Shown: positions 8,911 through 14,468 of the stretch, piece after piece
Numbering within the stretch: position 1 is the stretch's first letter
Layout: each line of letters starts with the position of its first letter
Assembly: GCA_945898275.1 (NCBI GenBank)
Contig: CAMDHZ010000012.1
Coordinates: forward strand, 29,338-93,337
Length of the DNA: 64,000 nt
From: Chitinophaga pinensis
Lineage (GTDB): Bacteria; Bacteroidota; Bacteroidia; UKL13-3
Direction of reading: 5' to 3'
The notes under the pieces: model-generated
Told to the model about the DNA's origin: nothing
What the model saw: the letters and a program-made list of their open reading frames with translations, nothing else
Databases searched by the model: none
Position numbers and translations under genes: made by a program

Positions 8911-10188
8911 CTAAACCACTGTACCAGCAGGAATAATTGCACCTTTCTTAATAATCACAATACCTTCCTTAATGCAATATTGCTCTGTTTCTGAATCTTC
9001 CAAATGCAATCCACCTACAATGGAAACATTATCCCCAATTCTAACATCTTTATCTATAATGCAATTTTCGAATCTACTGTTACTGCCATATCCCATAACA
9101 ATGCCATGTTTTGGAGCCCTTAATTCTTCCATTGTTTCATAGGTGTCATTGCCAAAGGTTACACAGTTTTTCATCACCGTGCCCGCTCCTATTCTTGCCC
9201 TATTACCTATGATGCAGTTTTCTATTTCTTTACCTTGCACAATACAACCTTCTGAGATTACAGCATTTTTTATTTTAGTGTCTTCACCAAACTTGCTTGG
9301 GGGCAACATCCTTGCTCGGGTATAAATAAATCGGGTATTGTCATATAAATTAAAACTTGGTAAGCCTTTGGCCAAATCTAAATTTGCCTCAAAATAACTG
9401 CTAATAGTTCCAATGTCTGTCCAATACCCATTATAAGAATAACCCTTTACTTTAAGGTTGTTTAATATGGCAGTTGGAATGATTTCTTTTCCAAAATCTG
9501 TATGATGCGGATGCTCTTCAAACAAACGATGTAAGGTGGCTTTGTTAAAAACATAAATGCCCATAGAAGCCAAATATTCATTGCCTTTTTCTTTTTGTTC
9601 TTGGCTTACAGGGCTAATCCAACTTGACAATTCTTCACTCTTTGGCTTCTCTATAAACTTATCTATAAAGCCATTTTCATTTACCTTCATGATGCCAAAA
9701 CCCGGTGCATCTTCCTTATTCACAGGAATGGTTGCAATGCTTATTTCTGCGCCAGAGGTCACATGTTGATTCACAAACTCGCGCAAGTCCATTTGGTATA
9801 GCTGATCCCCACTTAAAATAAGGATGTAATCATGGTCATGGTCTTCCATGTGCGTAAAAGATTGCTTAACCGCATCTGCTGTTCCTTGAAACCATTGCTC
9901 GCTTCCAGGCCTTTGTTCTGCCGCCAAAATATCAACAAAGCTGTGGCTGAACATATCAAAGTGATAGGTGTTTTTGATATGCGCATTTAAAGACCTTGAA
10001 TTATATTGGGTCAACACAAAAATCCTTCTAATGCCCGAATGCAAACAGTTAGATATTGGAATATCAATTAACCTGTACTTACCTGCAATGGGTACTGCAG
10101 GCTTACTTCTAATAGAAGTTAATGGGTACAACCTAGAACCCGCACCTCCACCTAGAATTAGGCATACTACTTTAATTATTTTTTCCAT
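8911..10188 (-). CDS. glgC: Glucose-1-phosphate adenylyltransferase (ADP-glucose pyrophosphorylase)
   Basis: Makes ADP-glucose from glucose-1-phosphate and ATP, the committed step of bacterial glycogen synthesis. The nucleotidyltransferase domain begins with LILGGGAGSRLYPLT, followed by SKPAVPIAGKYRLIDIPISNC. The GDQLYQMD block and the sugar-binding FIEKP follow. The C-terminal third is a left-handed beta-helix with hexapeptide repeats (GCIVQG, NCIIGNRARIGAG). The 425-aa length is standard. The start is three bases after the glgA stop, so the two are co-translated in one operon. Confidence 0.95.
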   Translation of the reverse strand: MEKIIKVVCLILGGGAGSRLYPLTSIRSKPAVPIAGKYRLIDIPISNCLHSGIRRIFVLTQYNSRSLNAHIKNTYHFDMFSHSFVDILAAEQRPGSEQWFQGTADAVKQSFTHMEDHDHDYILILSGDQLYQMDLREFVNQHVTSGAEISIATIPVNKEDAPGFGIMKVNENGFIDKFIEKPKSEELSSWISPVSQEQKEKGNEYLASMGIYVFNKATLHRLFEEHPHHTDFGKEIIPTAILNNLKVKGYSYNGYWTDIGTISSYFEANLDLAKGLPSFNLYDNTRFIYTRARMLPPSKFGEDTKIKNAVISEGCIVQGKEIENCIIGNRARIGAGTVMKNCVTFGNDTYETMEELRAPKHGIVMGYGSNSRFENCIIDKDVRIGDNVSIVGGLHLEDSETEQYCIKEGIVIIKKGAIIPAGTVV

Positions 10189-10191
10189 AGT

Positions 10192-11601
10192 CTATTGATA
10201 GTATAATGAAATGTATTTTTTTACAGCCGTTTCCCACGAGAAATCTAATTTAATTCCCAATGCTCGCACATGATTGAAAGTATAACTTGAATAATATAAA
10301 TCTTTGGCTCTGTAAAGACTATAAAGAATATCCTGCACAGTGCCTTGATCAAATCTAATTCCGTATCCTTCGAAGTCGCCAAAATCCTTTACAGAATCCT
10401 TTAATCCACCTACACTTCTAACAATAGGAATGGTTCCATATCGCAAGGCATACATTTGGTTTAAACCACATGGTTCTACAAAAGACGGCATTATTAAAAA
10501 ATCTGCAGCTGCATACATTTCATGCGCCAAGGTCTCATTATAGCCAATATAATTGGCAACATTCTCTGGAAATACACCAGAAATATGCCTTAATGCATCT
10601 TCTAAATTTGGAGAACCAGACCCCAATAAGAAAAAGTTCATTCCCTTAGTTTGATGCACAAATTCCCCAACCGATGGCGCGATTAAGTCTCCCCCCTTTT
10701 CGCCCGTTAGCCTGCCAATAAATACACATAATGGTAAGTTAGGGTCAAACCTAAACCTCTTGCAAATTTCTTCTTTGTTTTTCTGTTTGAACCCAAGCCA
10801 ATTTTGCTCGCTCAATTTATGGGTTAAATAGGCATCTGTATTTGGATCCCACACTTGTGTATCTATCCCATTTAAGATACCAAAACTTTTATAGGCATAT
10901 TCTTGATACAACCAAGAATAGGAACTTTGTTGTTGCTGCAGTTCTTGCAAATATCCTTGGCTAACCGTGGTAACCTTTTGACTACATTTTATAGCTGTTG
11001 CCAATGGGTCAATTCGGTTATCCCATTCTAATAAACCTCCAACCTCCCTAGGAAAATGTGGAAAGAATCGGGCATAATCATGCGGCACTGGGGCTGTATA
11101 AAGGCCATTATGAATTGTGAAAACAGTTTTTATATTTCTTAAGGGATGGAAATCATAACAATGCGCCGCCATAAAGGCTGCATACCCGCAATGATGATCA
11201 TGTGCATGCAATACACTTGGCTTTTGCTCCCAACTGCAAAGCCAATGCAAAACCGCTTGCTGGAAAAAAATAAATCTAAAGGCATCGTCATCATATCCAT
11301 AAACCTGGTCTCTAAACAATATTCCAGGGATATCTACCATGTATAAATCAAAGCCCAAGGTATCTTGTGCTGCCTTTACAATATGAAATGGGATATTGAA
11401 ATGTTCAGTGCTGCAAACCCCTTCAAAAACCGAATGAGAAACGTGCGCAGCATTCCATTTTAAGTTATACCTAGGCATTACCAAACAAGAAGGCACACCT
11501 GCTTGATTAAGGTATTTAGGTAAGGCACCCGCCACATCTCCTAAGCCACCAACCTTGGCAACCGGAAAACATTCTGCACTTAAATGGATTACTTGGTACA
11601 T
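10192..11601 (-). CDS. glgA: Glycogen synthase (GT5)
   Basis: Transfers glucose from ADP-glucose to the growing alpha-1,4-glucan. The N-terminal ADP-glucose motif KVGGLGDVAGALP is at about residues 16-28. The C-terminal GT-B domain has FIGRLTGEKGGDL and the PSFVEPCGLNQMYALRYGTIP block with the conserved E-x7-E type pattern. The 469-aa length matches GT5 glycogen synthases. It lies between the class V PLP enzyme and glgC with gaps of 9 and 3 bases, so the operon order is PLP enzyme, glgA, glgC. Confidence 0.95.
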   Translation of the reverse strand: MYQVIHLSAECFPVAKVGGLGDVAGALPKYLNQAGVPSCLVMPRYNLKWNAAHVSHSVFEGVCSTEHFNIPFHIVKAAQDTLGFDLYMVDIPGILFRDQVYGYDDDAFRFIFFQQAVLHWLCSWEQKPSVLHAHDHHCGYAAFMAAHCYDFHPLRNIKTVFTIHNGLYTAPVPHDYARFFPHFPREVGGLLEWDNRIDPLATAIKCSQKVTTVSQGYLQELQQQQSSYSWLYQEYAYKSFGILNGIDTQVWDPNTDAYLTHKLSEQNWLGFKQKNKEEICKRFRFDPNLPLCVFIGRLTGEKGGDLIAPSVGEFVHQTKGMNFFLLGSGSPNLEDALRHISGVFPENVANYIGYNETLAHEMYAAADFLIMPSFVEPCGLNQMYALRYGTIPIVRSVGGLKDSVKDFGDFEGYGIRFDQGTVQDILYSLYRAKDLYYSSYTFNHVRALGIKLDFSWETAVKKYISLYYQ

Positions 11602-13089: not shown

Positions 13090-13330
13090 AGCGAATTAAG
13101 TAAAGCGAATTTAAGGTAATTTTCAAAAAAGCGTTAAGCATTTAGGTTTCGGTTTGAACCAAACAATAGACCATTCAATTTAGAAGTGAAATAACCCCAG
13201 TTGTTTCAGACCTCAGAGAATTTGGCGAAGGTGTAAGTGAGGCAGGAATGTTTTTAAGTTTATTTAAACCCAGTAGACGCCTGAAGGCTCAAAATAAACT
13301 TCAATTTGCATTTTTTGAATACATTAACTC
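13090..13330. other. Intergenic stretch before the mrr promoter, with an ORF-like remnant and an inverted repeat
   Basis: No complete gene is seen. One copy of GGTTTGAACC lies at 13151-13160. An open frame on the plus strand (13170-13340, 56 codons, no ATG near its beginning) reads like a protein fragment (SDLREFGEGVSEAGMFLSLF) and could be the tail of a lost gene. Perfect 10-bp arms AAGTTTATTT / AAATAAACTT at 13256-13265 and 13292-13301 form a hairpin with a 26-nt loop. Confidence 0.4.
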
Positions 13331-13377
13331 TACCCACTAATGGGTATTTTTTGGATGTTGTGGAATGGGTATATTTG
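13331..13377 (+). promoter_or_regulatory. Hairpin plus TATATTTG promoter module upstream of mrr
   Basis: TACCCA-CTAA-TGGGTA with a following T-run (13331-13352) is spaced 24 bases from a Bacteroidota -7 box TATATTTG at 13370-13377. The hairpin could end incoming transcription and insulate the cassette, while the box drives mrr 106 bases downstream. The same layout with identical spacing recurs at 62099-62144. Confidence 0.6.
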
Positions 13378-13483
13378 TTGTAGGGCGAATAAATACTTGG
13401 GGGATTTATGAGTTACCTGTAAGCCTATCATACAACAACCAACTTCAAGAACTCTATTAAAAAAAATAAACACACAATAATAA

Positions 13484-14329
13484 ATGAAAGGTCCAGAATT
13501 TTTGAAATATGTTAATCCAGTTTTGACCGCACTTCAATTGAATGGAGGAGCAGGCGATTCATCTGATATCATAGAACAAGTTATCGACAAATTAGGAATT
13601 ACAGAAACAGACTTAGAAGAAACTACCTCTAATGGACAATCAAGAATAAGAAACCAAATTCAATGGGCTAGGTTTTATCTGTTTAAGGCTGGACTTATTG
13701 ACAATGCACAACGTGGCATTTGGAGACTTACAAATGAAGGACTTGATAGAAAATTAAATGATGAAGGTGTTTATAATCTTTTTAAAGGTGTTCAAGACAG
13801 CGTTAAGAAAACGCCTGCATCAAAATCTAAAAAAACAGATCCAGTATTTGAAAATATACCAACAGAGGACGAAGAACATTCTATTGGTTTAATCAATATC
13901 ATTCAGAACCTAATCCCTTCAGGCTTTGAAAAGTTATGTAAACGACTACTAACGGAAATCGGTATAAATGAAATAGTCATAACTGGTGGTTCTGGTGACC
14001 AAGGAATAGATGGTAAAGGAATTGTGAAGTTAAATGATGTTGTAAGTTTAAACATAGTTTTCCAATGTAAGCGATACAAAGAAACAGTCTCGCCTCATCA
14101 TGTGCGCGACTTTCGCGGTGCAATGCAAGGACGAGGTGAGAAAGGCTTAATTATAACTACTGGACGCTTTACTAAGGAAGCGAAAAGCGAAGCAAATCGT
14201 GACGGTGTTACTCCTATTGAATTAATTGATGGAGATAGACTAATTGAACTTTTTGAAAAATATCGATTAGGACTTAAACCAGTTACAGTTTATGAAATTG
14301 ACCAAGATTTCTTCAAAGGATTTAACTAG
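13484..14329 (+). CDS. mrr: Mrr-like type IV restriction endonuclease
   Basis: Cuts foreign, typically methylated, DNA. The N-terminal about 90 residues are the Mrr winged-helix domain (WARFYLFKAGLIDNAQRGIWRLTNEG). The C-terminal nuclease is of the PD-(D/E)XK Mrr_cat type: FEKLCKRLLTEIG, then GGSGDQGIDG with the catalytic Asp, then FQCKRYK with Q-x-K, then IITTGRFTKEA. The 281-aa length is close to typical Mrr (about 300). It stands alone between a promoter module and an attC-like palindrome, consistent with a mobile gene cassette. No methyltransferase partner is present, as expected for type IV enzymes. Confidence 0.9.
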   Translation: MKGPEFLKYVNPVLTALQLNGGAGDSSDIIEQVIDKLGITETDLEETTSNGQSRIRNQIQWARFYLFKAGLIDNAQRGIWRLTNEGLDRKLNDEGVYNLFKGVQDSVKKTPASKSKKTDPVFENIPTEDEEHSIGLINIIQNLIPSGFEKLCKRLLTEIGINEIVITGGSGDQGIDGKGIVKLNDVVSLNIVFQCKRYKETVSPHHVRDFRGAMQGRGEKGLIITTGRFTKEAKSEANRDGVTPIELIDGDRLIELFEKYRLGLKPVTVYEIDQDFFKGFN

Positions 14330-14332
14330 AAG

Positions 14333-14468
14333 GCCAGCAGGTAACAGCACCTACAAGAAATTGGCGGTTTTGTGGTTAAATAAGACTTTGCGCTTCGTAT
14401 CAAGTTCAGTGTTGGCAGACAATTTTCGTCTCCGAAATCGCCACCTTTGTGTAGGCAAACCGTTGAGG
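14333..14468. repeat. attC-like imperfect palindrome after mrr
   Basis: The left end GCCAGCAGGTAACAGCACC and the right end TGTAGGCAAACCGTTGAGG are mutually inverted: AAC (14343-14345) with GTT (14462-14464), CCTACA (14350-14355) with TGTAGG (14450-14455), and GGCG (14363-14366) with CGCC (14439-14442), with bulges on one side. The overall layout of about 136 bp, with AAC/GTT boundaries and extrahelical bases, resembles integron attC sites. The fit to the RYYYAAC/GTTRRRY core sites is imperfect. It begins just after the mrr stop codon. Confidence 0.55.

Follow-up and report, generated by a model that had tools for sequence, protein, structure and literature searches.

The mrr locus and its landing site

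The stretch of Bacteroidota DNA analysed here (64,000 nt; hereafter the window) carries an mrr gene, a palindromic hairpin site behind it and a landing site ahead of it (Table 1).

Table 1. Features of the mrr cassette, its hairpin site and its landing site in the window
Feature	Position	Strand	Basis or remark
Landing site, attI-like platform	13317..13411	+	Repeated elsewhere in the genus; some copies lie against a cassette start
Landing-site palindrome TACCCACTAATGGGTA	13331-13346	+	
Promoter-like TTTG and TATATTTG	13350-13353 and 13370-13377	+	Spacing 16 nt
Landing-site core GAATAAATACTTGGGGGATTTATGA, abutting GTT	within 13317..13411	+	
Left core GTTACCTGTA	13412..13421	+	Predicted cassette start after G13412; G008 collinearity ends at 13415
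mrr cassette, putative mobile unit (1,050 bp)	13413..14462	+	Ends inferred from the R'/R'' rule of the arrays and two G008 breakpoints
mrr, type IV restriction endonuclease (Mrr_N + Mrr_cat), 281 aa, cassette gene	13484..14329	+	Pfam PF04471 (E 3e-29), PF14338 (E 3e-23); PADLOC mREase_IV
R''-like box AGCAGGTAAC	14336..14345	+	Cassette-specific 7 nt + AAC; pairs with own cassette start
attC-like hairpin site, TAACAGCACCTACAAGAAATTGGCGG ... CCGAAATCGCCACCTTTGTGTAGGCAAACCGTT	about 14342-14465	+	Covariance model R1, alignments, covariation
Arms of the hairpin site, loop between	14347-14366 and 14440-14456	+	Alignments
R'-like core GTTGAGG	14462..14468	+	G008 right flank picks up again at GTT

The hairpin site begins 12 nt past the mrr stop codon, in agreement with the original prediction of a cassette-like element directly behind this gene, and copies elsewhere also follow genes. 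The cassette is bounded on both sides by G|TT. Its predicted start, GTTACCTG at 13412, agrees in 8 of 10 letters with the reverse complement of AGCAGGTAAC, and at the other end crossover would fall after G14462, with host sequence from 14463 on. In a genome of the same genus (G008) the same landing element is followed by a different cassette: the two sequences are collinear to 13415 (91%) and again from the 3' half of the site, the interval being filled by some 5 kb of other genes. The break point in G008 is the same GTT, between the same flanking genes and with other cassettes inside, so that the comparison points to one insertion site occupied by different cassettes in the two species.

Within the landing site, TTTG and TATATTTG form a putative promoter, judged by consensus, and their 16-nt spacing is shorter than usual. 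A second type of landing site, about 150 bp long and near-identical among its copies, is present five times in three genomes of the genus (L027 162-310, L216, L217, L221 and L071); it has no adjoining recombinase gene and, where checked, adjoins the start of a first cassette. The window itself, with a lone site and no nearby integrase, fits the pattern of a CALIN (or single attC), and the lack of an integron integrase in it had been noted correctly.

Structural conservation of the hairpin site

The window site scored 107.4 bits (E 4e-25) with covariance model R1, which was built from an alignment that included the window copy itself, and is the sole match in the 64-kb window. It had been described from its letters as having AAC/GTT ends, three arm segments and one-sided bulges. 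The three arm segments are genuine but split by symmetric 1x1 mismatches, and the asymmetry consists of a 1-nt versus 5-nt spacer beside AAC/GTT (206 of 252 sites have the 5-nt spacer) together with a 2-nt deletion in the 3' arm, which is peculiar to the window copy when set against intact copies. Folded alone, the window copy behaves like shuffled sequence (z -0.03 and -0.17, as against -2.2 to -3.5 for intact copies), in keeping with the 2 nt missing from its 3' arm. This lone fold is uninformative, and the case for the palindrome therefore rests on the other copies.

Such copies are numerous. BLAST retrieved 11 from the window's own genome and the covariance model about 34; among 60 genomes, own included, the site was found in 47 by BLAST and in 55 by the model, so the further copies for which a covariance-model search had been suggested do exist. 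Some are 95-96% identical between families, and a scan for AACA plus arm and arm' plus GTT gave 60 matches as against 9 in a block shuffle. Compensatory change was seen at all 17 stem pairs in the 48-site alignment that served as training set. In 150 sites from independent loci chosen by protein alone, 93.2% of stem cells were paired, compared with 62% in shuffles and 28-41% in slid registers. Because fitting to the covariance model shaped this alignment, the absolute pairing leans high, but slid registers fall far below it. Both partners had changed in 851 cells of these sites and in 258 of shuffles, and what is conserved is accordingly the folded structure and not the sequence. Most sites have 119-124 nt from AAC to GTT, and 112 of 252 have exactly 121 nt. 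Canonical attC cores are rare (RYYYAAC in 14 of 252 sites, GTTRRRY in 11 of 252), which bears out the remark that attC core rules are imperfectly followed, whereas the shorter cores YAAC (248/252) and GTTR (247/252) are nearly universal. Rfam holds no family for the site. R1 also matched in 28 of the 98 IntI genomes that lack a strong hit to the recombinase described below, and the model may therefore reach some canonical attC sites. The palindrome is confirmed by these comparisons as real and as a putative cassette recombination site.

Organization of cassettes in arrays

Units cut at G|TT should each have a start complementary to their own end, in which case the letters after GTT of one site must pair with those before AAC of the next. 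Complementarity of at least 6 of 7 letters was observed in 82 of 100 neighbouring pairs, as against 4% for random pairs, 6% with the wrong neighbour or direction and 7% inside a single site; this is the anatomy of integron cassettes. Comparison of the arrays shows predicted cassettes that start at TT, end with the hairpin plus G and have complementary ends. Each has one gene and a 3' hairpin site, in one orientation and in tandem, with a median cassette length of 975 bp. Of 224 cassette ORFs, 213 run in the direction of the array and 11 against it, with the stop codon a median of 19 nt before AAC; copies behind variable genes, which the original prediction had proposed looking for, are thus present. 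Entire cassettes recur end to end across species and array positions, for example between Pelobium and F. denitrificans (93% over 1,436 bp) and between G000 and G013 (96%).

Dispersed palindromic repeats or MITEs that land behind genes by chance would also be present in numerous copies, and short contigs are indeed broken at copies of the site. Such an origin is contradicted by the neighbour complementarity, and neither exact-ended shared cassettes, nor one-sided ORF orientation, nor an adjoining recombinase would be expected of it; we regard it as scarcely credible.

Near-identical cassette pairs were observed inside single arrays, at 11147 and 18894 of L150 (99%), 12872 and 14980 of L125 (99.6%) and 11141 and 11640 of L151 (87%).

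A tyrosine recombinase adjoining the arrays

When coordinates were compared, a tyrosine recombinase gene of about 350 aa was found directly upstream of the array and in the same orientation in four of five genomes examined, G005 having only a fragment. A search with the recombinase alignment yielded 80 loci, including ones from Flavobacterium, Pedobacter and Chryseobacterium. These loci, picked by protein, contain 181 R1 matches, nearly all downstream of the recombinase and on its strand, and where at least 1.3 kb of downstream sequence was available, 40 of 45 loci had sites. An attI-like site lies about 105 bp past the recombinase; its core was recognized in 71 of 76 loci, and in 41 of 43 loci a distance of 87-134 bp separates the recombinase match from the first cassette, the exceptions being L171 (392) and L186 (940). 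An attI beside the recombinase gene, with the first cassette at G|TT, is therefore found here as in integrons. The attI sequences contain inverted repeats whose letters differ by locus (mean score 9.1 versus 3.9 for shuffled sequence). Comparison thus shows predicted cassettes that are either single or arrayed behind an attI-like site, with a seemingly dedicated tyrosine recombinase gene just upstream in the same orientation. Among genomes of the phylum, a strong recombinase hit (at least 450 bits, a threshold chosen after the scores had been seen) co-occurred with sites in 35 of 36 (p 2.5e-12 by a Fisher test that ignores genome kinship). To the earlier reading of this DNA the analysis adds the cassette's left end, its landing site, a dedicated recombinase together with attI, and array grammar.

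The window's own genome (98% complete) contains no recombinase of the array family at E 1e-70, and phages yielded only distant relatives. The integrases G000:C72, C20 and C19 were considered as cassette enzyme and rejected, being of mobile-element type and XerC/XerD type. In L113-L192 the inverted repeats of attI, about 70 bp before the first GTT, carry a locus-specific word of 5-7 nt, which may co-vary with the N-terminal domain of the recombinase. The recombinase gene of G005 (L070) is split into two ORFs, and the N-terminal domain of the G008 recombinase (L066, about 9890-9963) is apparently frameshifted relative to it.

Relationship of the recombinase to IntI and Xer

The IntI model TIGR02249 matched the array recombinase in two pieces with 203-223 bits, below its cut-off of 265, and gave only matches under the cut-off in the window's own genome. 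Some 40 residues between KGxKDR and HxLRH are missing in all 21 array enzymes aligned and present in all six IntI rows; the additional domain specific to IntI is thus lacking, and the array recombinase is, by its alignment, a relative of IntI without the IntI-specific insertion. In an enzyme tree, IntI formed one clade and 20 array enzymes another (weak support, 90/88). The tree included only two Xer rows, and the G008/G005 enzyme (L066) joined IntI on a long branch, so we read the tree as neither rooted nor ordered. An AlphaFold model of the recombinase had good local confidence and a pTM of 0.51, and its domain placement was for that reason left unused.

Canonical IntI was detected in 105 of 396 genomes of the phylum, and within the class only in G095 in that sample; it is almost absent from the class of the window's genome. 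These counts bear on the possibility that the sites descend from ordinary integrons, as CALIN or single attC remnants that canonical IntI from other bacteria moved. Such remnants would share the overall anatomy, canonical IntI does occur in the phylum, and a 3'-truncated copy is present in G013 of the same genus. We nevertheless consider this origin quite improbable, since the class has so little canonical IntI, the enzyme linked to the arrays is of another lineage without the IntI insertion and the canonical core rules are not followed. The truncated G013 gene, a canonical integron integrase ending at 273 aa, lies on contig C58 (L061 1388-2209).

Among solved structures, the nearest by sequence are those of archaeal XerA (5hxy, 4a8e), followed by IntI4 (2a3v); two of three recombinase queries passed the NF040815 cut-off, and XerC/XerD models score the enzyme well. 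Taken together with the position of the hairpins after stop codons, this could favour double-stranded, Xer-like recombination at short cores, the hairpin having another role such as transcription termination. Against this stand a stem of about 20 pairs kept by covariation, the near-fixed AAC-to-GTT length (121 nt the commonest value) and the few linear letters shared at the crossover (YAAC, GTTR), which point instead to recognition of shape, and we judge Xer-like recombination highly improbable. Chromosome dimer resolution is the known function of XerA (PMC8138268); here its relatives are linked to cassette arrays.

Comparison with known systems

Among known platforms for stockpiling single genes, integrons are the main one. 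Like mobile and sedentary chromosomal IntI integrons, the present system has tandem single-gene cassettes pointing one way and each ending in a hairpin, complementary R''/R' ends, a G|TT boundary and attI beside a tyrosine recombinase. It differs in that the recombinase lacks the IntI-specific insertion, has an extra N-terminal domain and has its gene pointing the same way as the array; in that the cores are not RYYYAAC/GTTRRRY, with symmetric 1x1 mismatches and a 1-versus-5-nt spacer; and in having extra landing sites with putative promoters elsewhere in the genome. Because the array enzymes lack the IntI domain and most sites lack canonical attC cores, we have not classed it as a canonical integron. 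The window cassette resembles a CALIN or single attC in having no local integrase, but belongs to a non-canonical system whose landing sites are recurrent sequences. By description, pdif dif/Xer modules are flanked by 28-bp XerC/XerD dif-like sites; the unit ends here are GTT and a hairpin.

Bacteroidetes have been reported as nearly free of integrons, with integrase-only elements found earlier and then one complete integron in Salinibacter ruber (PMC9024848). In the accessible sections of PMC8138268, the insertion is called essential for integron function in an integron-like subgroup of tyrosine recombinases, and no link is drawn there between insertion-free members and arrays, a link that is made here. 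Single-strand recombination has been tied to the acquisition of the I2 helix (PMC7790495). In Riemerella anatipestifer, homology-independent uptake of aph(3')-IVb involves a 27-bp 5' region and a 140-bp 3' region, the latter called attC-like; this unit, compared by description, is similar in having a gene with an attC-like 3' region and homology-free integration, and the section consulted mentions neither a recombinase nor an attI (PMC13148043). Within our literature coverage, which left out most subscription papers and all preprints, we found no description of the system.

Proposed mechanism

The palindrome is very probably the attC-like site of a single mrr cassette in an integron-like system of Bacteroidota, as the suggestion of a distinct Bacteroidota cassette element had anticipated. 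Counting against this reading are the damaged 3' arm of the window copy, a left core with only 8 of 10 letters matching and the failure to find a recombinase of the array family in the window's own genome. Building on the site structure, unit ends, array order, recombinase linkage and locus turnover shown by sequence comparison, we read the system as a new integron variant that would work like an integron, with an integrase acting in trans in the window's genome. In our working model, the array recombinase would catalyse the joining of two hairpin sites, excising a cassette as a circle, which would be inserted, with crossover at G|TT, either into attI or at one of the promoter-bearing landing sites elsewhere. 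The hairpin site would be recognized by its folded shape, as covariation suggests, probably on one extruded strand. The most recently inserted cassette would be expressed from the promoter ahead of the landing site. In the window's genome, the cassette may have been gained by horizontal transfer and inserted in trans, or the recombinase may have been lost afterwards.

We also put forward, as a tentative though plausible extension, that Bacteroidota may possess a second integron lineage whose integrase, acting on folded single-strand cassette sites, has lacked the IntI-specific helix from the outset. Cassette recombination on single strands would then predate that domain or have evolved independently of it, and many promoter-bearing landing sites along the chromosome could be served by a single integrase.

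Implications, cargo and plasmids

If the proposed mechanism is correct, single genes would be swapped in and out of chromosomes and plasmids, apparently by an integrase without a part thought essential; cassette exchange would be common in the class, and tools that seek the IntI domain and canonical attC may largely miss it. As the insertion-free enzyme is linked to hairpin cassettes, the I2-helix requirement becomes directly testable. The mechanism would also explain the blaOXA, blaMYO-1 and aadS array in Myroides and the uptake of aph(3')-IVb without homology in Riemerella (PMC13148043).

Cassette cargo is diverse, with 98 Pfam families matched among 149 proteins and defence genes a minority. 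A plasmid of Chryseobacterium sp. SNU WT5 carries the recombinase, an attI-like sequence and sites. On the Myroides odoratimimus plasmid p63039 (NZ_CP013691.1, L269 1762-5500), sites lie between GNAT, blaOXA, blaMYO-1 and aadS; the unit ends of GNAT and blaMYO-1 match, those of blaOXA do not, and the end of aadS is degenerate.
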